DNA of 35,892 nt from a virus: the IMG/VR virus record IMGVR_UViG_3300042549_000661, positions 1 through 35,892 of that record. One strand, given 5' to 3'. Position numbers and translations under genes: made by a program. The notes under the pieces were generated by a model. It was not told where the DNA came from and searched no databases. It was given only the letters and a program-made list of their open reading frames with translations. Positions 6,207 to 29,177 of this stretch are shown piece by piece. Position 1 is the first letter of the stretch, and each line of letters opens with the position of its first letter.

Positions 6207-7674
6207 TGGTCGGACTCAGGATCAGTTCTGCGCCCATGATGGCGATCTTTACGGGGTCGGTGCCCGACACCTCGTAGACGCGATCACGCAGCTTCAGAGT
6301 CATGCCCAGTCTGCGCCAGATGGCACGGCGATAGTACTCACCGATCTTGCCGATGCTGATCCAGTGCTCGTTGGACCATGTGTGCCCACCATCGTCGCTC
6401 CATCGCAGCATGACCTGTGGGTCGCTGCCTTGCGTGATAACTGTTTGCTGTTCCGCAATAAGTCTGTCATCAGCCTCGGTGACTAAGTAATCGTCCGATT
6501 CGGTTTGCAGATAGATATTTTCAACCCTTGTAAATCCATTCAAACCAGTACCCGACTCGCAGTCAAGCTGGAGGCTGTGGTGCGCGGTGCGCTTCAGATT
6601 GTTCTGACCGGTGGGCAGTGCTCTCCACGAGCGCAGCCACTTTTGGATCTGCCCGTTGTCCGAGTAGTCTTCCAAGTCAAACGAGTAAATGTTGCCGTTC
6701 TCAAAGTCACCCACAACGATCTTGTTGTTAAACGACATCTGGCAGTTGCTGCGGTGACGGGTAAACGCACCATTGACAAACCCTGCCCTCTCGTGCCATG
6801 CCTGTGTGGCGGCATCGTACACCCATGTGGTGTTGGCCGTGGGAAAGATGAGCACGTAGAAGTTGTGGCCGTCTTGCTGGTACGTGTACCCGATGGCGTC
6901 AGTGATGTCAGCGTACTGCTGAATTTGCCACTCGACAGCATGTGTCGAGATGCGCTGACCAGCGTAACCGTTGGCCCGGTAGACCATGCCTTGCCCACGG
7001 CGGTCACGGCCAAGCCAGAACAGGCCGTTGTCCATCTTGGCGATAGAGTAGGGGGCAGCGCAGCCCAACTCATTGAATGCGCCGGGGATGCGCTCAAGAG
7101 GGAAGTCAAGCGCACCGGTGTCAGACCAGACTTCAATTGAGTTCGTGCCAAAGGCCCAGACCTCGCGGAAGTTGGCAATCACAGCCACCAGGCCGTCAGG
7201 TGACCCTTCGGTGCTGGCAAACTCCAGTGGGTCGATGGACGTACCGTCCAAAAGGGCTGTGACCCACATCTTCTGGCTGTTCGGCTCGTTGAACACAAAG
7301 TAGCCGTCCAGATAGGCCACAGTCACTGCACCAGGGAAGTCCGGGTCAGTGATCTGACCAAATGCGTTTGTGTCGGCGTTGTAGATGAAGCTGGGGCCAT
7401 TGCAGGCAATGAACAACTGTGTGCCGTTGTCGGCCATGCTGACAGGGCCAGTTCCTGCCACGTTGCCGATCAGTGTGGGGGTGTAGGCGTTGTCGATCTT
7501 GAACAACTGGGTGCCCGACACCACAAAGCCTGTGCCATCGTTTGACGAGAATGCCCACAGGCCACGGATCGGGCCATTGCCGATCGTGTTGAGCAGGTTG
7601 AGGCCGGGGGCGCGGTTCAGGAACGCAGGTTCTTTGCCAGCCTCGGGCACAATTTCTGGGAACAGGTTGACCAT
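6199..7674 (-). CDS. Tail hub / DNA stabilization protein, P22 gp10-like
   Basis: From the first ATG this is a 491-residue beta-rich protein with repeated blades (GLWAFSSNDGTGFVVSG, TQLFIACNGPSFIYN, YLDGYFVFNEPNSQKMW). It matches the phage stabilization protein family that closes the portal and holds the tailspikes. Members normally begin with a short peptide of the type SPILGSSYVTRSINAADAR just ahead of MVNLFPE. Here that peptide is present in frame upstream (7737-7675), but its start codon reads ATA, with an AGGAG site (7748-7744) 6 nt ahead of it. The protein may therefore start at ATA 7737 (512 residues) or be shortened at the 5' side. The damage lies next to an inserted endonuclease gene. 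The 3' end overlaps the next gene by 8 nt. Confidence 0.88.
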   Translation of the reverse strand: MVNLFPEIVPEAGKEPAFLNRAPGLNLLNTIGNGPIRGLWAFSSNDGTGFVVSGTQLFKIDNAYTPTLIGNVAGTGPVSMADNGTQLFIACNGPSFIYNADTNAFGQITDPDFPGAVTVAYLDGYFVFNEPNSQKMWVTALLDGTSIDPLEFASTEGSPDGLVAVIANFREVWAFGTNSIEVWSDTGALDFPLERIPGAFNELGCAAPYSIAKMDNGLFWLGRDRRGQGMVYRANGYAGQRISTHAVEWQIQQYADITDAIGYTYQQDGHNFYVLIFPTANTTWVYDAATQAWHERAGFVNGAFTRHRSNCQMSFNNKIVVGDFENGNIYSFDLEDYSDNGQIQKWLRSWRALPTGQNNLKRTAHHSLQLDCESGTGLNGFTRVENIYLQTESDDYLVTEADDRLIAEQQTVITQGSDPQVMLRWSDDGGHTWSNEHWISIGKIGEYYRRAIWRRLGMTLKLRDRVYEVSGTDPVKIAIMGAELILSPTNA

Positions 7675-20858: not shown

Positions 20859-22403
20859 TCAAGACCCCATCCAAGATGATGATACAGCGCCTCTGTCCAT
20901 GCTGACTGAGCGCGTTGTGGTTCGAGAATTGTACTCCCGATGTGCCACAGGGTACGCAAAGGTTACAGCGATGGCGTCAGCCGCATCGGGTGATGCAACT
21001 CCACGCGCTTTCATCTCTTTCTTGCCTTCCAAAAAGATGGTGCCAGCCGAGTTAGGCTTCTTCATCGGGCCGATCAGGTCGGACTTGAGCATCCTGTCCT
21101 GCGGGATGCTGGCGGTCTTGAGCCAGTCGCGCATCGCACCCCAAATCTCAGCCCGCTTGTTGCCCCACATCGTTGGGTTCTTGGCCTTCCAGCCGAAGTT
21201 GACCCCGCGCACTTTGTACTTCTGCTCGGTCAATCTGTCAAGGATGCCGTACCCCAGACCACCCTCGTCAATCACGGTCAACGCTGGCCGGTACTCCTCG
21301 ATGGCGTCGATGACGTGGCCCACCACGCTCATGGTGTCCTCACCCTTGAACCGCTTGATCGCCACGATGTCACGACCTTGGCGCACGGCAATCACGGTGC
21401 TGTCCATGCCGCCCCGGGCCGGGTCCACGCCGATGATGATGGGCGCGGTCATGTCTTTGTACAGGGGCCGCTTGATGGCATCGTCCACAACGTGCGGCGT
21501 GATGAACTGGTCCTGGCCCGACTTGGGGAAGTCGCCATAGACCTCGACCCGCGCCTCGTCCGAGTCCTCACCGTACTCGTTGATGATCTGCTGGTAGATG
21601 GTCTTGTCGGTGCCCTCAACTGTGCGGGCGTCGATCTTCTCGCTCTCCCAGAACTCCCGCTTGCTCCCGTCCACCGCCTCGTAGAAGTACCCGGTGTTGC
21701 GACGACCGTTGCTGAACGCCAGCCAATACCGGTCCAGGATGTTCTCGGTAAAGAAGCCCGCAGCCACGGACCAGATGCTGTCCGGGATACCGCTGGCCTC
21801 GTCAAAGATCACCATCATGCCGTCCATGTTGTGCACACCGGCGTAGGCGTCTGGGTTCTCCTCGCTCCACAGCTTCCCCTCGGCTCCCCAGTACCGGGTG
21901 CCTTTACGCAAGTCACGCTCAACCAGATCGGTCAACCAGTTGGCCGGGTTCAGGCTCGTGGCCGTGGGTTCCCACCAGTGGGCGTTGAGCGCCATCGTGA
22001 CCCACTTAGTCAACTCACCCCATGTCACCTTGCGCAACTGGTTCTCGCTGTTGGCCGATACGATGACTGAACTACCTATGCGAGTGGTCAGCATCCACAG
22101 GATCAACCACGACACCAGTGCTGACTTGCCCACACCTCGGCCTGAACTCACGGCCCTGCGCATCGCGTCGATCAACTCCTCGTTACTCAGCTTCCCCCGG
22201 TTCTCTTTGATGAAGTCCCGTATCCTGCGCAGCGCCCTACGCTGCCATGTGCGGGGGGCTTTGAAGTGTTCGAGTGGGGTGTTCTTCTGCCCCCAAGGGA
22301 ACAGGAACAAGACAAACGCTTCGGGGTCATCCTTCAGGGCAGGACTCCAAAGCTGGCTCATCAGGGTCTGCTCATCTTCTGGGCTGTACCGGGGCTTCTG
22401 CAT
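20859..22403 (-). CDS. Terminase large subunit
   Basis: This 514-residue protein has a Walker A-like SSGRGVGKSA at 86-95 and a Walker B MMVIFDEA at 196-203, forming the packaging ATPase. The C-terminal nuclease follows: GVDPARGG (D327), VIDEGGLGYG (D379) and SPDAADAIAV (D473), the three acidic positions of an RNase H-like fold. It pumps DNA into the procapsid through the portal and cuts concatemers. Its ATG overlaps the small subunit stop by one base (TGATG) and its stop is 2 nt before the next gene. The catalytic residues all look intact, so I see no sign of decay. Confidence 0.95.
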   Translation of the reverse strand: MQKPRYSPEDEQTLMSQLWSPALKDDPEAFVLFLFPWGQKNTPLEHFKAPRTWQRRALRRIRDFIKENRGKLSNEELIDAMRRAVSSGRGVGKSALVSWLILWMLTTRIGSSVIVSANSENQLRKVTWGELTKWVTMALNAHWWEPTATSLNPANWLTDLVERDLRKGTRYWGAEGKLWSEENPDAYAGVHNMDGMMVIFDEASGIPDSIWSVAAGFFTENILDRYWLAFSNGRRNTGYFYEAVDGSKREFWESEKIDARTVEGTDKTIYQQIINEYGEDSDEARVEVYGDFPKSGQDQFITPHVVDDAIKRPLYKDMTAPIIIGVDPARGGMDSTVIAVRQGRDIVAIKRFKGEDTMSVVGHVIDAIEEYRPALTVIDEGGLGYGILDRLTEQKYKVRGVNFGWKAKNPTMWGNKRAEIWGAMRDWLKTASIPQDRMLKSDLIGPMKKPNSAGTIFLEGKKEMKARGVASPDAADAIAVTFAYPVAHREYNSRTTTRSVSMDRGAVSSSWMGS

Positions 22404-22987
22404 CAGTCGTTCTCCAGTCTTGGTGTCACGTCGATCACCTCACCCTCGATCACTCTAGCCTGTGCCTGCGCCAGCGCCTCGGTGATAGAGATGGTGCCAC
22501 CGAGTTCAACCTGCTTGATCTCGCCGTAGCGTTTCTTGTTGTGTGCGCTCATGAGCCACTTGCGCGTGTCGATGCGCAGCTTGTCCCTGTTCACCGTATC
22601 GTTCGATGTGGGGTCCACCGCTTCGACACCATCGGCAATCTCTAGGATTTCTCCCGCAAGAAACTCAGTGCGCATCTCCTGCGCTTCTTTGAATCGCTCG
22701 TGGCGGGTGGGTTCACGCTTGACCCAGCGCAGGAAGTCCTCATACGAGATGGCCCTGTGGTCATCCTCAATCAGCGATTGCAGGGACCGGCCACGGTAGA
22801 TGTCCTCCACGACTCTCTCGAAGATTTGCTCATATTCGACATGCAGCAACGCCCTTGCCTCCTTCGAGGTTCTGAGGGGTTCTGGGTCAGGCACGGACAG
22901 CCAGTTGGGCAGTTGATTCTCACTGGCGACAGCCGTGCCTACAAACGAGGTGTTCTCTTGTTTCATAGTGTCCTCAGTGTAAGGCAT
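22403..22987 (-). CDS. Terminase small subunit
   Basis: This 194-residue protein has a helical middle rich in charged residues (SLQSLIEDDHRAISYEDFLRWVKREP) and a segment (MRTEFLAGEILEIADGVEAV, DTVNRDKLRIDTRKWLMSAHNKKRYGEIKQVEL) typical of small terminase subunits of the P22/Sf6 type. It recognises the packaging site and activates the large subunit. An AGGAA site precedes the ATG at 22987; a second ATG seven codons in also has a GAGGA site, so the start is uncertain by seven residues. It is the first gene of the leftward late block, facing the palindrome array. Confidence 0.9.
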   Translation of the reverse strand: MPYTEDTMKQENTSFVGTAVASENQLPNWLSVPDPEPLRTSKEARALLHVEYEQIFERVVEDIYRGRSLQSLIEDDHRAISYEDFLRWVKREPTRHERFKEAQEMRTEFLAGEILEIADGVEAVDPTSNDTVNRDKLRIDTRKWLMSAHNKKRYGEIKQVELGGTISITEALAQAQARVIEGEVIDVTPRLEND

Positions 22988-23028
22988 AACGGATTCCTGC
23001 GCAATGTTGGGGGTTGTGGGGATAGGGA

Positions 23029-23552
23029 ACCCATTGGGTTTCTGATTTTCTAAAAAATTTTCAGAGGATTCGTGATGCTTACGTAGCCGTGACCATCGGG
23101 CGCTCGGCCCTCCCCCCTCCCCCCCGGATTAAACGCACCATTTAACCCAGTGGGTCTGCACCATGACGCACCCGCACCCAATGGGAACCGCTACCCAATG
23201 GGGTAAACAACCCAACGGGTCAGGGGTTCAGGGGTCAACCCATCGGGTCATTGGGGCAAACCCACTGGGTCAGGGGTCATGACCCAACGGGTCAGGGAAT
23301 AACCCGAATCCTTGACCCAGTGGGGTAAAACAGGGGGTTTTGGGGCCGATTGTGACAATGTGCTCTTTCGCGCAGGCAAGGCGAAAAAATACATACTTTC
23401 TAAATTGCACAAGGATTAAGCAAACTACAAAATGAACCCCCAGCGACAAAAGGGCACTTTGTCACCAGAGGTAAAAGTGCATACCCAATGGGTTAGGGAA
23501 AGTACCTAGAAGATATTTTCGTGTAGGCTATTGACACACTGACCCAATGGGT
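23029..23552. repeat. Eleven-copy palindrome array (ACCCANYGGGT)
   Basis: Copies occur at 23029, 23145, 23176, 23193, 23210, 23238, 23260, 23282, 23315, 23483 and 23542. Most read ACCCA-(A/T/G/C)(T/C)-GGGT, with one-base variants at 23176, 23193 and 23315. Intervals of 17, 17, 28, 22, 22 and 33 bp mark the dense part, where several equal about two or three helical turns. The array fills the divergent non-coding gap between the late block and the early operon. A further copy (23799-23809) lies just after the first early gene. The symmetric sites suggest a dimeric DNA-binding protein; origin iterons are an alternative. The rest of 22988-23599 holds a C-rich run, an AT-rich patch (23386-23435) and no gene. 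Confidence 0.9.
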
Positions 23553-23558
23553 TAGAAT
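23531..23558 (+). promoter_or_regulatory. Early rightward promoter with operator in its spacer
   Basis: TTGACA (23531-23536) and TAGAAT (23553-23558) are 16 bp apart, and the palindrome ACCCAATGGGT (23542-23552) fills the end of the spacer. A sigma70-type promoter is therefore likely, and a bound palindrome protein would block it. The sequence after it (TCACATCAACAAC, 23562-23574) is repeated downstream of another promoter at 35662-35674. Confidence 0.8.
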
Positions 23559-23576
23559 TGATCACATCAACAACCC

Positions 23577-23597
23577 GTAACCTGTAACTGGAGATCA
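23577..23597 (+). repeat. Repeated leader cassette, copy 1
   Basis: A 21-bp sequence starting GTAACCTGTAACTGGAG and ending ATCA precedes the first early ATG, and an identical copy occurs at 23826-23846. It includes the ribosome site (TGGAG). Related looser versions precede the starts at 24410, 29155, 31088 and 35688. Confidence 0.8.
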
Positions 23598-23599
23598 TC

Positions 23600-23797
23600 A
23601 TGACAAAGCAAGAGCAAAAGCAAATCGACCGTGCAACAGCCCAAGGACGTGGAGCATTGCTTCGCACACTGGCAATCATCCATCGTGCAGGCAGCAGCCG
23701 CACACAAAAGGCTGTCGAGCTTCAAATTGAGTTAGGCAATGCTTGGGATGAATTCACAATGGTCAATGGTGCATTGCTGCATAACAGCGAAGTCTAA
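23600..23797 (+). CDS. Small early protein, unknown
   Basis: This 65-residue protein begins MTKQEQKQIDRATAQGRGAL. It has a helical, charged first third, and its second half (SRTQKAVELQIELGNAWDEFTMVNGA) is amphipathic. It has no recognisable family and no membrane segment. It is the first gene after the early promoter, a position often used by phages for host-takeover proteins, but nothing in the sequence points to a target. The leader cassette supplies the ribosome site 8 nt before the ATG. Confidence 0.7.
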   Translation: MTKQEQKQIDRATAQGRGALLRTLAIIHRAGSSRTQKAVELQIELGNAWDEFTMVNGALLHNSEV

Positions 23798-23803
23798 AAC
23801 CCA

Positions 23804-23821
23804 GTGGGGCGCAAGCCCCAC
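23804..23821 (+). other. GCAA-capped hairpin after first early gene
   Basis: GTGGGGC-GCAA-GCCCCAC forms a 7-bp stem with a GNRA tetraloop. There is no T-run, so it is more likely an RNA stability or processing element than a terminator. It overlaps a twelfth copy of the palindrome (23799-23809). Confidence 0.6.
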
Positions 23822-23825
23822 ATCT

Positions 23826-23846
23826 GTAACCTGTAACTGGAGATCA
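23826..23846 (+). repeat. Repeated leader cassette, copy 2
   Basis: This is an exact copy of the 21-bp cassette at 23577-23597, placed directly before the second early gene. It gives the same ribosome site and spacing. Confidence 0.8.
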
Positions 23847-23848
23847 AA

Positions 23849-24070
23849 ATGCAAACTGAACAATTCGCCCTCATCGTGTGGCATAACGATGACGTGAGCG
23901 GCACTCATCAGCGAGTGCTTACCCGTGGTCACACTGCTGATCGCGTGATGCTCGATTTCGCTAAATACTTGCAGCGCCCCGTGTGGTGCCGCAGCTTCAC
24001 TGGCAAAAACAAAGTGCAGCTTCATGGGCCTGATGGCCTGATCTGCGACTTGCCAGCACTGGAGGGTTGA
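23849..24070 (+). CDS. Small early protein, unknown
   Basis: This 73-residue protein begins MQTEQFALIVWHNDDVSGTH. It has short beta-type segments and ends with KNKVQLHGPDGLICDLPALEG. One cysteine pair position (C47 and C65) is possible but does not form a recognised metal motif. It has no known family to me. It belongs to the early rightward operon and has an identical leader cassette to the first gene, implying matched translation. Confidence 0.68.
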   Translation: MQTEQFALIVWHNDDVSGTHQRVLTRGHTADRVMLDFAKYLQRPVWCRSFTGKNKVQLHGPDGLICDLPALEG

Positions 24071-24073
24071 ACC

Positions 24074-24172
24074 ATGACCCGCGAAACCCTCTTAGATATC
24101 GCCCTCGCCGTGCTTATTGGCTTGGCACTGTGCGCCCTGGTGCTGCACGGGCTTGATGCTCTTTTTCTGTAA
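24074..24172 (+). CDS. 32-residue single-helix membrane microprotein
   Basis: The frame opens with ATG 24074 (MTRETLLDIALAVLIGLALC) and ends at TAA 24170-24172. Residues about 6-25 are a nearly continuous hydrophobic helix (LLDIALAVLIGLALCALVL) followed by a short polar tail. It starts 3 nt after the preceding stop. A tiny inner-membrane protein is likely; similar one-helix proteins occur among phage early genes with toxic or exclusion roles, but that is conjecture. Confidence 0.6.
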   Translation: MTRETLLDIALAVLIGLALCALVLHGLDALFL

Positions 24173-24191
24173 CCACTGAAAGACCCTAACC

Positions 24192-24329
24192 ATGAAATAC
24201 GTCACCGTCACCGTTTATGGCCGCGAATATCGCGCCTTGCTGCTCGCATCGCATAGCTGCGGCACTGTTGATGTGCAACTGCCTTCCGGTCGCTGCTTCC
24301 GCGTCTCGGGCTTGAACGTCAAGGGATAA
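24192..24329 (+). CDS. 45-residue early protein, unknown
   Basis: ATG 24192 starts MKYVTVTVYGREYRALLLAS, continuing HSCGTVDVQLPSGRCFRVSG, and it ends at TAA 24327-24329. The alternating hydrophobic pattern predicts a compact beta fold, with two cysteines (C26 and C37 by my count). It starts 19 nt after the preceding stop in the same operon and has a CCCTAACC leader, the pattern of this operon rather than a classic ribosome site. No family is recognised. Confidence 0.58.
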   Translation: MKYVTVTVYGREYRALLLASHSCGTVDVQLPSGRCFRVSGLNVKG

Positions 24330-24337
24330 CCCAGCCT

Positions 24338-24356
24338 AAAGCCCGTCCAGGGCTTT
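24338..24356 (+). other. Hairpin after 45-residue gene
   Basis: AAAGCCC-GTCCA-GGGCTTT forms a 7-bp stem. The following bases are GGGG and not T-rich, so it is an imperfect terminator at best; partial attenuation of the operon is possible. Confidence 0.5.
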
Positions 24357-24409
24357 GGGGTGCGCATCTCGCCACCGTGTAACCCTGTAACCCGTTAAAG
24401 GATCAAACC

Positions 24410-24700
24410 ATGACTACTCGAATTACCCGCGCATTTCTTGACGCCAAAGTCGCCACACTCAACAGCATGACGAAATCACCGTCCGAGCCATACCGCACCG
24501 TTGACGGTAAAGCCGTTGCCAACAAAGGTAATTACCACATTAGCGGCGCTTATGGCGGGTACTGCCTGCACCGTATGTGCAATGAGGGCGGCGGCGTGTC
24601 TGATGTGTTCAGCATCGGCCACGTTTCCACCCGTGAATTGGCCGGGTTGATGTCTGCCTATATGGCCGGACTGTATGACGCAACAAGGGGCGCAGCATGA
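24410..24700 (+). CDS. Conserved phage/plasmid early protein, unknown
   Basis: This 96-residue protein has the pattern VATLNSMTKSPSEPYR, GNYHISGAYGGYCLHRMCNEGG and GVSDVFSIGHVSTRELAGLM. The GNYH-SGAYGG...LHRM-N-GGGV core is found in small proteins of phages and plasmids, but I know of no assigned function. Two cysteines flank the core. The ribosome region is a leader-cassette variant (GTAACCCTGTAACCCG, then AAAGGATCA). Its stop overlaps the next gene's ATG as ATGA. Confidence 0.7.
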   Translation: MTTRITRAFLDAKVATLNSMTKSPSEPYRTVDGKAVANKGNYHISGAYGGYCLHRMCNEGGGVSDVFSIGHVSTRELAGLMSAYMAGLYDATRGAA

Positions 24701-24987
24701 TCAATACGCCCCTCGAATGGCAAGCCCTTTGGGACGCTATGGACGCAAACCCGGACGCATGGATCCCCACCACTGAAAAAATGTACTGGGACATGCTGGA
24801 AGTTTTGCCGCCTGAAAAGATGCTCGGGCGCAATTTCCTTGTCGGTGAACCCTTGCGAAGCAATGAACAAGGCGAATCGGTCTATTCATGCTTCACCCAG
24901 TTCGGCGACACCTACAAAGCCAAAAATTTAACAGTCGCTGAGTTCATGCGTGAGCATGGACACACCCCAGCCCGTGACTTACGTTAA
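24697..24987 (+). CDS. Early protein, possibly DUF1419-like
   Basis: This 96-residue protein has EKMYWDMLEVLPPEKMLGR followed by NFLVGEPLRSNEQGESVYSC, a pattern that resembles DUF1419 (EVLPP...FLV-EP...). That match is weak and from memory. It is neither membrane-bound nor rich in cysteine. Translation is coupled to the upstream gene by ATGA. It ends about 14 nt before the next start, preceded by AAAGGAG. Confidence 0.55.
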   Translation: MINTPLEWQALWDAMDANPDAWIPTTEKMYWDMLEVLPPEKMLGRNFLVGEPLRSNEQGESVYSCFTQFGDTYKAKNLTVAEFMREHGHTPARDLR

Positions 24988-25001
24988 AAGGAGACAACAC
25001 C

Positions 25002-25334
25002 ATGATCAATTTCAAAGTTAAATCAACCACGTTCAAAGTGGAAACCCCTGAAAAACAGGCATTGATTGAGGCGTATTGCAGCAAGATCAAAAGAGGAACC
25101 GGGCGAACAGCGCATAAGCTGGACAGCTTCGCAAAACGTCATTCAAGCAACCCGGTTCACCCTCGTTTCATGGAAGGCACAAGCACCGCTTTTTATGTGC
25201 GTGAGTACGAACGGGCGAACGCTTACCGCTTCGGGGGTAATTACAGCGAACCGTCAAGCCTATTTGACACCTTGTCAACGAACCCGCAATTTACCCAAGA
25301 CGACACACACATTGAGGAATTGAACCATGATTGA
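25002..25334 (+). CDS. Early protein, unknown
   Basis: This 110-residue protein begins MINFKVKSTTFKVETPEKQA. The middle is basic (KIKRGTGRTAHKLDSFAKRH) and the end is acidic (TQDDTHIEELNHD). It has no recognised family. The charge split suggests it could bind nucleic acid, but this is only composition. The last codons overlap the next gene by 8 nt. The ribosome site AAGGAG lies 10 nt before the ATG. Confidence 0.65.
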   Translation: MINFKVKSTTFKVETPEKQALIEAYCSKIKRGTGRTAHKLDSFAKRHSSNPVHPRFMEGTSTAFYVREYERANAYRFGGNYSEPSSLFDTLSTNPQFTQDDTHIEELNHD

Positions 25335-25596
25335 CTTGTCCAAACTTGACCCCTCCGAAGCCGAACGCATCGCCCACGCTGAGGGCTTCACAGGGGTATC
25401 CGCCCTGTATGCCCGACTGTCTGACGCTGATCACTTAGCCAGTGTCCAAGCGGATGAAATCGAATCGCTCAAAGACACGCTGTTGCAATGCCTCCCATTC
25501 TTTGAAGACTGGAAGGATGAGGACGGGATTTATAAGCCCCGCACCATGACCTTCATGATCCGCATCATTCGTAAATCGTTGGGAGAAAAAGCATGA
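25327..25596 (+). CDS. Early protein, unknown
   Basis: This 89-residue protein begins MIDLSKLDPSEAERIAHAEG, has an acidic helix (DADHLASVQADEIESLKDTLLQCLPFFEDW) and ends with a basic helix (TFMIRIIRKSLGEKA). No family is recognised. It overlaps the previous gene by 8 nt and the next by 4 nt (ATGA), so it is coupled to both. It has no membrane segment. Confidence 0.65.
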   Translation: MIDLSKLDPSEAERIAHAEGFTGVSALYARLSDADHLASVQADEIESLKDTLLQCLPFFEDWKDEDGIYKPRTMTFMIRIIRKSLGEKA

Positions 25597-25769
25597 AAAC
25601 ATTTAAATGTGTCTGCGGTCATCTGGCCTACAAATTACCGAAGCGCGGCTGGCTTTGCCATTGCTCAAGCCCTAAACCGCAACCCGCACCAATTGATCGA
25701 AGGGTTATTCAACCCGATGAAATAAATGTCGCCCGACTGGTTGCTGACATCGAATGTCGGGGTGATTGA
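25593..25769 (+). CDS. 58-residue four-cysteine zinc-ribbon-like protein
   Basis: ATG 25593 begins MKTFKCVCGHLAYKLPKRGW and continues LCHCSSPKP. Cysteines 6, 8, 22 and 24 form a C-x-C...C-x-C pair spaced like a small metal knuckle. The rest is a basic, Pro-rich linker and a short acidic tail. It overlaps the previous gene's stop as ATGA and its own stop TGA is one base before the next ATG. The metal-binding reading is inference; there is no recognised family. Confidence 0.62.
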   Translation: MKTFKCVCGHLAYKLPKRGWLCHCSSPKPQPAPIDRRVIQPDEINVARLVADIECRGD

Positions 25770-25844
25770 ATGATAACCGCCCTACTGATAGCCGTGGGGG
25801 TAGCCGTGGCGATTCCCCTACTCGAACGCTTTTTCGATTTGTAA
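25770..25844 (+). CDS. 24-residue single-helix membrane microprotein
   Basis: ATG 25770 begins immediately after the stop of the preceding gene. The peptide runs MITALLIAVGVAVAIPLLER then FFDL, a hydrophobic helix with one charged pair near its end. It closes the early operon before the terminator at 25866. It is very short, so the call relies on position and coupling, but a second hydrophobic microprotein in the same operon makes it more credible. Confidence 0.5.
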   Translation: MITALLIAVGVAVAIPLLERFFDL

Positions 25845-25865
25845 CCCCTAACCCTTGAAACCCGC

Positions 25866-25896
25866 AGCCCCTGACACCCCGTCAGGGGCTTTTTTT
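25866..25896 (+). terminator. Strong rightward terminator of early operon
   Basis: AGCCCCTGAC-ACCCC-GTCAGGGGCT is a perfect 10-bp stem, followed by six more T. This is a textbook intrinsic terminator. It lies 21 nt after the last small gene and 27 nt before the HTH gene, so HTH expression depends on read-through or antitermination. Confidence 0.92.
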
Positions 25897-25923
25897 GACC
25901 TTACCCTTAGGACACCCCTAACC

Positions 25924-26256
25924 ATGACACAAACCGCCCCCAAACAACCCAAAACCCCCGCCCACGGTACAGTGGCCCAACGGGTTCGCCAAACCGTTGA
26001 CCGTTTGAACCTTGACGAAGGGCAGGCCGCTGCCTACTTCGGTGTTCCCGTGTTCACCGTTCGCAAATGGCTCACGGGTGAACGTGAACCAGGGGCAGCG
26101 GTAACCCGTCTGCTTGAAGTCCTGGGCATGATCGAAGCCCTAGCCCCCGACCTCCATCACTCGTTTCTGCCCCGTCTGACCACCCGGCCTACCCGGGGTA
26201 GACGTGATACCCCCTCCCCTGCCCATAATTCGGTCATGTCAGAAAATCCCGTTTGA
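25924..26256 (+). CDS. Small HTH DNA-binding protein
   Basis: Starting at ATG 25924 (MTQTAPKQPKTPAHGTVAQR), the 110-residue product has one helix-turn-helix, about residues 25-65 (LDEGQAAAYFGVPVFTVRKWLTGEREPG). It fits an XRE/HigA-like fold; Phe-Thr-Val-Arg-Lys is the probable recognition helix. A basic, Pro-rich tail follows. An earlier TTG start at 25855 would lie within the terminator, so I reject it. This is a plausible protein for the palindrome array, as the only classical HTH regulator in the early region, but the pairing is inferred. The gene runs between two terminators. Confidence 0.75.
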   Translation: MTQTAPKQPKTPAHGTVAQRVRQTVDRLNLDEGQAAAYFGVPVFTVRKWLTGEREPGAAVTRLLEVLGMIEALAPDLHHSFLPRLTTRPTRGRRDTPSPAHNSVMSENPV

Positions 26257-26275
26257 AAGAGTCAACCATCAAAAC

Positions 26276-26304
26276 AAAAAAGCCCGGTCAATCCGGGCTT
26301 TTTT
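26276..26304. terminator. Bidirectional terminator between convergent genes
   Basis: AGCCCGG-TCAAT-CCGGGCT (26281-26299), with an A-run before it and a T-run after it, works on both strands. It separates the HTH gene from the converging primase gene, whose stop codon begins at 26304. Confidence 0.92.
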
Positions 26305-28802
26305 CATTCGTCCATGTCCGGGGTGTACCCCTTGACCAGCTTTCGGTCGTACCCCTTGGCCGTGGCGTGGCGGTAGATGTAGTCAGCGTGGCGCTGCTTG
26401 GCCTTGATGACCGTCTGCCGGTAGTCCTTGAACATCTCGGGCAGCGTGGGGTTGATGGCCCATGTGACCTTCTTTTTGTGCAGTTCACTCTCGATCTGCA
26501 CCGCCCAACCAGCCTGTTCGATGACCAGCATGGCGTCCATGATCGCCTGATCCTTCTGCCAGTCTGTTTTACCCTCCAGTGGCCTACGGGCCGACCGTTT
26601 GAGGCTGCGCAGGTCAACGGTATGCACCTCGCCGCTGATCTGCACAATGTAGTCGATCATCCACTGATCAAACGTGTCAGTGATGACCCCACCCACCTCG
26701 CCTAAAGCGTAGCGGTAAGCCGGGATGATGTACCCCCGCACCAAACTGACGACCCTGTGGACAACATCGACCGACACCACGGGGTTGAAGGGCGACTCGA
26801 TGACGTGGAACATGAGGATCAGTCGGCCAGCCAAACCCTCCAACTTGCCGAAGGCCGTCATGTACTCTGTGCCGCTGTCCAGCACCCTCTCGTCTTGCTT
26901 GGCCGACTCGTACCACTGCTGGAACTCCCTGAAGGCTGTGTACGCTTCTGTGGATAACTGGTACGTCTGCACGGGCAGCGCGTAGGTCAGGCGCAGGGTG
27001 TTCTCCCATGCCCCGGCGCTGGTCAGGTACTCGGGGATGGGCTGGCCCAGCTTGGTCTTGTTCCCGCGCAGAATAGCGGGGATAAACCGTTGCAGCAGGC
27101 CGTCAGCCGACAGCGCGGCCAGATTGGCCTTGAACACTTGGGGCTGAATGTTGCCGTAGATCGACACAGCGAGGTTCTCGGCATAGATCGACCCAGCGCC
27201 CACTCGGTCCATCTCGTAGTGTTCTGACTCGTAGCTGACAACCCACGCTGATCGGTCCTCGCCGCTGCTCTTGTCTGTTAGCTTGCGCACCCAACTGTTC
27301 ATCTCATCGAGGTAGCACAGCAGGCCACGGGGACGGTCTGCCGCTTGGCGCACCAGCTTCTGACTCGTGATGTCGCTGACCGTGATCTTCAGGGGTACGG
27401 GCTGCGTTGACAGGTCGGGCACAAGCGGTGCCTGATCCCCGCCCAGCATGGCCTCAGTAGACGATGACCATTCGAGGAATGCCTTTTTGGCGCTGGCGTG
27501 TTGGGCCTCTCTGCCCTCCCAGTCGAGCAGTTCCTTGCCGTAGCGGGGCCGGTCCTCTGCTTCGATGTTCTTCAATGGCGACAGCATGGGCCGCGAGCCG
27601 GGTGACTTCTTGTCCGCTGGGTCGCCCAAAGTCATGAGCCACAGCACCGGGGGCACACGAAACCCCGGCATGAGTTCCAACCGAATGCGGGCATCAATCA
27701 CCCCGCAGACAGCGGCCAACCCAGCGAACAAAGGGACCAAAGGGTCACAGCCCACGCTTTCTGAAATCTCAGTGGATCGGGTCTTGAGGATGTTGGGCCA
27801 CAGTGACAGGTCCATCTCGGGTGGCTTGGGCCGCAGGCCGTCCATCACGCTCAACGGCTCCATCACGGGGATGTCGATCTTGCTGAACAACTCGGACGCA
27901 TCGGGCATGGGCCGGGTCCAGCCGTGGGACTTGGCGATGTGAAAGAGTGTCCCCAACTTGACAGCCGTGGCCTTGTCAGGTTTGAAGCTGATCCACTGCG
28001 TCAAGATCTCACGCTCCCCAGGATACTTGGTCTGGGCCGTGGCGCTCCACTCGTTCCACAGCGCCAGCGCCTGCTCAAGCTGATCGGTCTGGGTGCCTGC
28101 CCAGTGCAGCGCCATGCCGATGCCCACCCACTCGTCACGGGTGCAGTCAGCGGGCACCGCATCGAGGGCTTGCCTGATCTCCTCCCATGAGGCATCAACC
28201 GAGCCGTCTGTGGCAATTGTGCGCTCTTTGTCCTGCGACAGCATCCCACTCCACAGGTCCAGCAGGGCTTGGGGGATCACCGGCATCCGGGTCCAATGGC
28301 CGTGGCCCGCCCAGTGGTAAGGCTGGCGTGTCTCGGGGTGGATCGACGGGGGCAGCACGTCCTGCACCGTGAGGCCGCTGACCGTGGCGCAGCGCAACTC
28401 GTAGGCTGTGATGCCGCTGTGCATGATCTTCTTTGATGGCAGTGCAGCGCCGAAGGGCATCGCATACAGCAGCTTGCCGTGCCCGGGCTTGCCCGAGTTG
28501 ATGACCACGGCGTCAGGCGCATCGTAGAGGGCTTGCAGGTCAATGCCGTGCTCGGCCAGCAGGCTGGTGGTCACGGTCCAGTTGTCGATGTCAAGGGCCA
28601 TCGTGCCGCTGTACGCATGGGCCAAGCCGATGCCGTAGCCGTGGGGTAGGTCGCCCTGGGCCTTGAGGGCGTTCTGTTTAAGGTTCCAGCCCGGGGTGCG
28701 TGGCCCCTTGGTGTTGGCTGGGATGGGTACAAGTGACCATCCGTGTCTGATGTAGGCGTCAACTGACGCAGGATGAGATTGCACAGTCTGTGGCGCTGTC
28801 AT
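26304..28802 (-). CDS. Primase-polymerase/DUF3987 replicative protein
   Basis: I start this at ATG 28802 (MTAPQTVQSHPASVDAYIRH), which overlaps a leader peptide; an upstream frame start at 28949 would run through the promoter. The 832-residue protein has a bifunctional primase-polymerase domain at 10-165, with the catalytic-type D71-I-D73 and H108. A PriCT_2-like region follows at about 205-270 (ALDAVPADCTRDEWVGIGMA), then a DUF3987-type helicase region from about 330. Where a Walker A is expected it reads GDPADKKSPG (393-402), lacking the usual glycine before Lys-Ser. It would prime and unwind DNA for replication. It is the only leftward gene in the right third and may be controlled by the palindrome at 28922. 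Confidence 0.85.
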   Translation of the reverse strand: MTAPQTVQSHPASVDAYIRHGWSLVPIPANTKGPRTPGWNLKQNALKAQGDLPHGYGIGLAHAYSGTMALDIDNWTVTTSLLAEHGIDLQALYDAPDAVVINSGKPGHGKLLYAMPFGAALPSKKIMHSGITAYELRCATVSGLTVQDVLPPSIHPETRQPYHWAGHGHWTRMPVIPQALLDLWSGMLSQDKERTIATDGSVDASWEEIRQALDAVPADCTRDEWVGIGMALHWAGTQTDQLEQALALWNEWSATAQTKYPGEREILTQWISFKPDKATAVKLGTLFHIAKSHGWTRPMPDASELFSKIDIPVMEPLSVMDGLRPKPPEMDLSLWPNILKTRSTEISESVGCDPLVPLFAGLAAVCGVIDARIRLELMPGFRVPPVLWLMTLGDPADKKSPGSRPMLSPLKNIEAEDRPRYGKELLDWEGREAQHASAKKAFLEWSSSTEAMLGGDQAPLVPDLSTQPVPLKITVSDITSQKLVRQAADRPRGLLCYLDEMNSWVRKLTDKSSGEDRSAWVVSYESEHYEMDRVGAGSIYAENLAVSIYGNIQPQVFKANLAALSADGLLQRFIPAILRGNKTKLGQPIPEYLTSAGAWENTLRLTYALPVQTYQLSTEAYTAFREFQQWYESAKQDERVLDSGTEYMTAFGKLEGLAGRLILMFHVIESPFNPVVSVDVVHRVVSLVRGYIIPAYRYALGEVGGVITDTFDQWMIDYIVQISGEVHTVDLRSLKRSARRPLEGKTDWQKDQAIMDAMLVIEQAGWAVQIESELHKKKVTWAINPTLPEMFKDYRQTVIKAKQRHADYIYRHATAKGYDRKLVKGYTPDMDE

Positions 28803-28967: not shown

Positions 28968-29177
28968 ATGACACAAGCATCCAAATCAGCGTTCATGTCT
29001 GTACGAGTGACAGACAAGACGCGCATCAAGTTTCATGAGAAAGCACGAAAGCTCGGAACCCCGAGTGAGGTGCATCGTGAAATCGTAGAGGCGTTTGTTG
29101 AAGACCGCCTCACAATTCAACCCCCTGTAATCCGTAACCCTCTGGAGAAACTTTATGTCAATCGAACAGAAAATTGA
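28968..29177 (+). CDS. Ribbon-helix-helix-like regulator
   Basis: From ATG 28968 (AAGGAA site 7 nt upstream) the 69-residue product starts MTQASKSAFMSVRVTDKTRI. The SVRVTDKTRIKFHEKARKLG segment gives a short strand plus helix, then TPSEVHREIVEAFVED gives a second helix, a CopG/Arc-like ribbon-helix-helix plan. Such proteins bind palindromes as dimers, so it may bind the operator 29 nt upstream of its start and regulate itself and the primase. That link is inference. Its 3' end overlaps the next gene by 23 nt, whose leader cassette is embedded in it. Confidence 0.7.
   Translation: MTQASKSAFMSVRVTDKTRIKFHEKARKLGTPSEVHREIVEAFVEDRLTIQPPVIRNPLEKLYVNRTEN

Follow-up and report, generated by a model that had tools for sequence, protein, structure and literature searches.

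The intergenic gap that separates the leftward packaging genes from the rightward early genes of this phage holds eleven copies of an 11-bp palindrome (23029-23552). The window analysed is the whole of one virus record, 35,892 bases. The palindrome array is real and very probably provides operators for the phage's own HTH repressor, forming an off-switch on the early promoter. Comparison with related phages establishes that the array exists and is conserved, that it is coupled to an HTH gene, that operator specificity has switched and that one site overlaps the promoter.

The palindrome array and its conservation

The gap is bounded by terS (22403-22987, leftward) on one side and by the first rightward early ORF (23600) on the other. 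The original prediction had placed eleven palindromes within about 520 bp at this divide, and all eleven were recovered: eight are exact copies of ACCC-N3-GGGT (form ACCCANNGGGT) and three, starting at 23176, 23193 and 23315, differ by one end base. Operator 1 (23029-23039, ACCCATTGGGT, exact) is isolated and is the site closest to terS. Operators 2 (23145-23155, ACCCAGTGGGT, exact), 3 (23176-23186, ACCCAATGGGA, one mismatch) and 4 (23193-23203, ACCCAATGGGG, one mismatch) follow; the position and mismatch of operator 3 are identical in close relatives, in which operator 4 is also kept. Operators 5 (23210-23220) and 8 (23282-23292) both read ACCCAACGGGT and enclose operators 6 (23238-23248, ACCCATCGGGT) and 7 (23260-23270, ACCCACTGGGT). 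Operator 9 (23315-23325, ACCCAGTGGGG, one mismatch) closes the cluster. The last two, operator 10 (23483-23493) and operator 11 (23542-23552), share ACCCAATGGGT and are 59 bp apart.

Every exact copy in the window is located in the terS-early gap. Chance was modelled with 5000 sequences of 613 bp, generated by a first-order Markov model with matching composition. They contained on average 0.057 exact sites (at most 2) and 0.90 near sites (at most 5), compared with 8 and 11 seen. A twelfth near match, at 23799, coincides in part with a hairpin of terminator type (GTGGGGC..GCCCCAC) and is probably a terminator stem rather than an operator. A further near match, GCCCAACGGGT at 25975-25985, sits within the HTH coding sequence and is probably due to chance.

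Queries with TerL, TerS and the HTH protein returned about 350 loci, 142 of which were left after dropping gaps more than 90% alike. Loci are the unit of counting, and all p-values are inflated by relatedness. Among named genomes the closest is that of Phage DSL-LC05 (OR003940), an uncultured lake phage; its gap aligns with that of the window at 73.5% and bears the same array. No mention of the array was found in the DSL-LC05 paper under the terms looked for (PMC10611076). The terminase, head-closure, ejection and scaffold genes are similar to those of P22/Sf6-like podoviruses. A search of related phages for the same motif in the same gap, proposed with the original prediction, found at least four sites at 96 non-redundant loci with enough flank. 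Gaps in relatives hold 8.6 sites on average (range 4-13). The consensus of 816 sites in relatives is A(0.93) C C C A(0.85) N T(0.78) G G G T(0.88). The predicted motif, ACCCANYGGGT, was right as to the palindrome and is better written ACCCA-N-TGGGT, the T sometimes being C.

The order of sites in the gap is also typical: close to terS a lone site, next a group of about 5-8, then a site-free interval of about 155-180 bp and finally a pair. The isolated site, the counterpart of operator 1, recurs 20-45 bp from the terS reference point, and the members of the terminal pair are usually 58-61 bp apart. Spacings of 17, 22, 27-28, 33-34 and 59 bp recur. The suggestion that the sites are set at near-integer helical turns did not hold up, since adjacent spacings follow no 10-11 bp phase as a rule (75 relatives, R about 0.08).

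The early promoter and the HTH protein

Only one good sigma-70-type match was found in 22950-26500. It consists of TTGACA (23531-23536), a 16-bp spacer and TAGAAT (23553-23558), has 11 of 12 consensus bases and is assigned as the early promoter (23531-23558, + strand). Operator 11 fills the spacer between the -35 and -10 elements and abuts the -10; a protein bound there should block the polymerase. Among the 61 relatives with a promoter of at least 10 of 12 consensus bases, 55 have a whole site in the spacer, against 9% expected (p about 1e-50, uncorrected for phylogeny), and in 50 the distance from site to -10 is zero. In many relatives a sigma-70 promoter cannot be recognised at this position, and no leftward sigma-70 promoter was seen at operator 1.

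The predicted array-binding repressor is an HTH protein of 110 residues (25924-26256, + strand), encoded about 2.4 kb downstream of the promoter on the same strand. It matches the transcriptional repressor family phrog_2328 (E 4e-5). The best relative of solved structure is MqsA, a weak match (profile E 0.008). The MqsA antitoxin family PF15731 scores 19.9 bits against a Pfam cut-off of 30 and aligns with the HTH part only, not with the whole protein. The AF2 model is a five-helix HTH with pLDDT above 90 over residues 11-80. Foldseek searches with this model were not decisive, as all E values were above 0.1; the top hits include MqsA and HigA2. The PADLOC defence-protein search with the HTH protein gave no match.

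The HTH gene is present at all 96 non-redundant loci that have at least four sites and enough flank, and no array locus was found without it. HTH absence was scored only at loci with at least 4.5 kb beyond terS; all five HTH-less loci have zero sites. The co-occurrence of array and HTH gene gives a Fisher p of 4e-5, or 4e-7 when any site is counted (both uncorrected for phylogeny). The gene is also found at nine loci with one to three sites and at three with zero CCC-type sites. In the terminase (TerL) tree the array-less loci L195 and L303 sit in separate array-bearing clades, with moderate support for L195; this suggests two joint losses of HTH gene and array.

Residues F44 and K48 of the HTH protein align in the PDB profile match with Asn97 and Arg101 of MqsA, which contact DNA and read the palindromes ACCT-N3-AGGT and TAACCT-N3-AGGTTA (PMC4901048). 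Where residue 44 is F, Y or H and residue 48 is K (96 loci), the arms are CCC-N3-GGG and there are 7.0-8.5 sites per gap. The S44-H48 clade (5 loci) has GCC-N3-GGC arms, 4.0 per gap, and zero CCC sites. Recognition helix and operator covary naturally, although the clean S44-H48 case is a single clade and thus one event. Partial changes in other lineages back the switch less cleanly. With F44-H48 (L233 and L235) CCC is retained, the sites being fewer and less symmetric; with T44-N48 (L053) there are about a dozen asymmetric AACCCATTG copies; and with T44-K48 (L232) the HTH gene is kept and there is no symmetric CCC site. Altered recognition residues would account only in part for loci with an HTH gene and no array. 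In L053 one AACCCATTG copy is located inside the -35/-10 spacer (TTGACA-17-TACACT) and another overlaps the -35. The HTH protein is the likely binder of the array: the two co-occur, residues 44 and 48 covary with the arms, and the MqsA operator is ACCT-N3-AGGT. The choice of this protein as candidate binder is supported by both the co-occurrence and the specificity switch.

Other candidate binders and the conserved 113-bp element

A second candidate named at the outset was an RHH-like small protein (28968-29177), whose gene is divergent from the primase gene and occurs in many relatives, array or not. RHH repressors often bind tandem palindromes, and the clean specificity switch is one event only; the RHH protein or a host factor might then bind the array and the HTH gene merely travel along. 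We regard this as most improbable. The array-less L195, L303 and L232 also encode the RHH protein, with a similar DNA-binding strand, and it was rejected as binder on that ground. A host factor would leave unexplained both the joint loss of array and HTH gene and the change of arms with residues 44 and 48.

Between the operator cluster and the promoter is a conserved element bracketed by GTGACA...TGTCAC (23352-23465); it contains a GC-rich block, CGCGCAGGC, and its middle is rich in T. It measures 105-117 bp, mostly 111-116, and occupies the same position in many relatives, including the array-less L195 and L303. Searched as RNA, the element gave no Rfam match above chance and no consensus structure. 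It is a possible origin or packaging signal. The distances from cluster to promoter pair bunch near 156-160, 165-168 and 176-178 bp (at 10.5, R is 0.42). We dropped this bunching as evidence of looping; it is uncorrected for kinship and the 113-bp element inside fixes much of the interval. A second conserved stretch, beside terS (23040-23112), reads leftward GGCCCT...GGCTACGTAGGCATCAC...GTGAAAATTTTTTCAAAA and is also found in the array-less L047; it does not look like a sigma-70 promoter or like a fixed contig end. A cos end ahead of terS was considered and rejected: the ends of several contigs fall 65-140 bp upstream of terS, though at differing bases.

The original prediction also allowed for a replication origin, with the palindromes as iterons read by the phage replicase. 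The many sites in a single intergenic gap, the adjoining 113-bp element and the nearby PrimPol-helicase gene fit such an origin. Iterons should be conserved with their replicase, whereas L195 and L303 lack the array and keep both a primase-helicase 65-71% identical and the 113-bp element. Moreover, the site sequence follows the HTH recognition residues, one site is within the promoter spacer, and GC skew makes no sharp turn at the array. With the sites tracking regulator and promoter in this way, an iteron origin is disfavoured and appears very improbable.

Proposed mechanism, lifestyle and known systems

In the operator reading that we prefer, an HTH dimer would bind each ACCCA-N-TGGGT palindrome; the earlier view of a symmetric site for a dimeric repressor is in keeping with the comparisons above. 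Bound at the last site, within the early promoter, the dimer would be a direct block to RNA polymerase. The operator lying 59 bp upstream, together with about eight more in the cluster, would raise occupancy, perhaps by cooperativity or by looping across the 113-bp element. Spreading of the repressor, raised in the original prediction, is conceivable too.

The promoter is followed by short early ORFs (23600-25769, + strand) up to the terminator that precedes the HTH gene. These lie on the same strand, are taken to belong to one operon; the ORFs among them that were scanned gave no informative family match. The HTH gene closes this rightward block behind a strong intrinsic terminator directly upstream (25866-25890, + strand, a 10-pair stem and T-run). 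Another terminator hairpin (26276-26304), called on the - strand and with T-runs on both sides, marks the junction with the convergent primase gene. A terminator-like site near the HTH start is found in 86 of 108 relatives, compared with 11 control windows. The T-run ends about 25-30 nt from the HTH start codon in the window, with similar values in relatives. As this short spacing leaves little room for a separate promoter, read-through expression with a delay is the simplest reading. Read-through would let the repressor accumulate gradually until it turns the early promoter off. The conserved terminator thus suggests delayed negative feedback through the HTH gene. Exclusion of related phages is a possible added role.

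It is also conceivable that the HTH protein is an immunity repressor of the lysogeny type, which together with the array would silence the phage during a carrier or plasmid-like existence and shut out superinfecting relatives, after the fashion of the stoperators in cluster A mycobacteriophages. Temperate phages are known for many-operator arrays (PMC6550527), and DSL-LC05 carries the annotation 'repressor protein C'. We nevertheless consider this unlikely. None of 18 near-complete genomes yielded a tyrosine integrase, a serine recombinase or ParA when searched for integration and partition functions (PF00589, PF00239, PF13614). A TerL scan of genome contigs, which reaches close relatives only, returned only two metagenome-bin contigs, and DSL-LC05 is termed lytic in its paper (PMC10611076). 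The repressor gene is on the strand and in the block that it would repress, and no divergent repressor promoter was seen.

It is chiefly in lysogeny that phages are known to use multi-site repressors. When a whole phage group with no lysogeny genes in view keeps a dense array, one may ask what makes a lytic phage shut its early promoter so tightly. We tentatively suggest, as an idea still short of probable, that an extensive podovirus lineage, apparently virulent, times a purely lytic cycle with a dense multi-operator array and a dedicated autorepressor, and that the terS-early gap is a modular slot in which regulator and array are exchanged together. The slot variants would be the ACCC and GCC arrays with their HTH variants, and others in L195, L050 and MW202483. 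The HTH-less L195, which has no ACCC array, carries ten AAACATC/GATGTTT repeats in the same gap, 238-630 bp beyond terS, two of which flank a TTGACA-TACAAT promoter. In L050, palindromes of the TGACC-N4-GGTCA type replace the ACCC sites upstream of terS, and the regulator is beyond the contig. The gap of L157 (MW202483.1, 3221-3590) holds palindromes of the form GTTTA-N2-TAAAC together with ATGTAAAC half-sites; a stand-alone HTH protein of the DnaA domain IV kind, 98 aa long (6424-6720), occupies the place of the window's HTH gene. The natural switch of arms along with two recognition-helix positions puts a two-by-two test of specificity within easy reach. The array also provides a simple signature in the DNA by which to find and group these uncultured freshwater phages.

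Among known systems, lambda-type CI and Cro resemble the array in that an HTH dimer binds palindromic operators overlapping an early promoter. The lambda type has three operators per control region, a divergent repressor gene and an integrase, none of which is found here. The earlier remark that the sites outnumber those of classic phage switches is borne out, with 11 in the window and a mean of 8.6 per gap in relatives.

MqsA of E. coli (PMC4894380, PMC4901048) has the closest solved HTH by sequence, with contact residues that align, and its operator ACCT-N3-AGGT has the length and geometry of ACCC-N3-GGGT here (816 sites; PMC4901048). By these comparisons both the HTH sequence and the geometry of the operator are MqsA-like, yet the protein is not a member of PF15731. 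The zinc-binding N-terminal half and the MqsR toxin partner of MqsA are not seen here, and MqsA has two sites, as against many at a phage early promoter.

Like the present protein, Aca autorepressors are small phage HTH proteins encoded in an early operon, with an inverted repeat between the -35 and -10 of a strong early promoter (here at 55 of 61 loci); autorepression has been reported for them (PMC9410906, PMC8434428). At Aca promoters the inverted repeats number one or two (PMC9410906), in contrast to 4-13 over about 500 bp here. In acr-aca operons aca accompanies an anti-CRISPR (acr) gene, and no acr gene is known here; sequence searches with the HTH protein returned no Aca family.

In the Rep/stoperator system of the cluster A phages L5 and Bxb1, as proposed here, one repressor serves many sites, one of which is the early-promoter operator, and repressor and site sequences co-diverge (PMC6550527). 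Stoperators are asymmetric 13-14 bp monomer sites, with 20-30 genome-wide, in temperate phages (PMC6550527), whereas the sites described here are symmetric, packed in one gap and apparently not tied to lysogeny.
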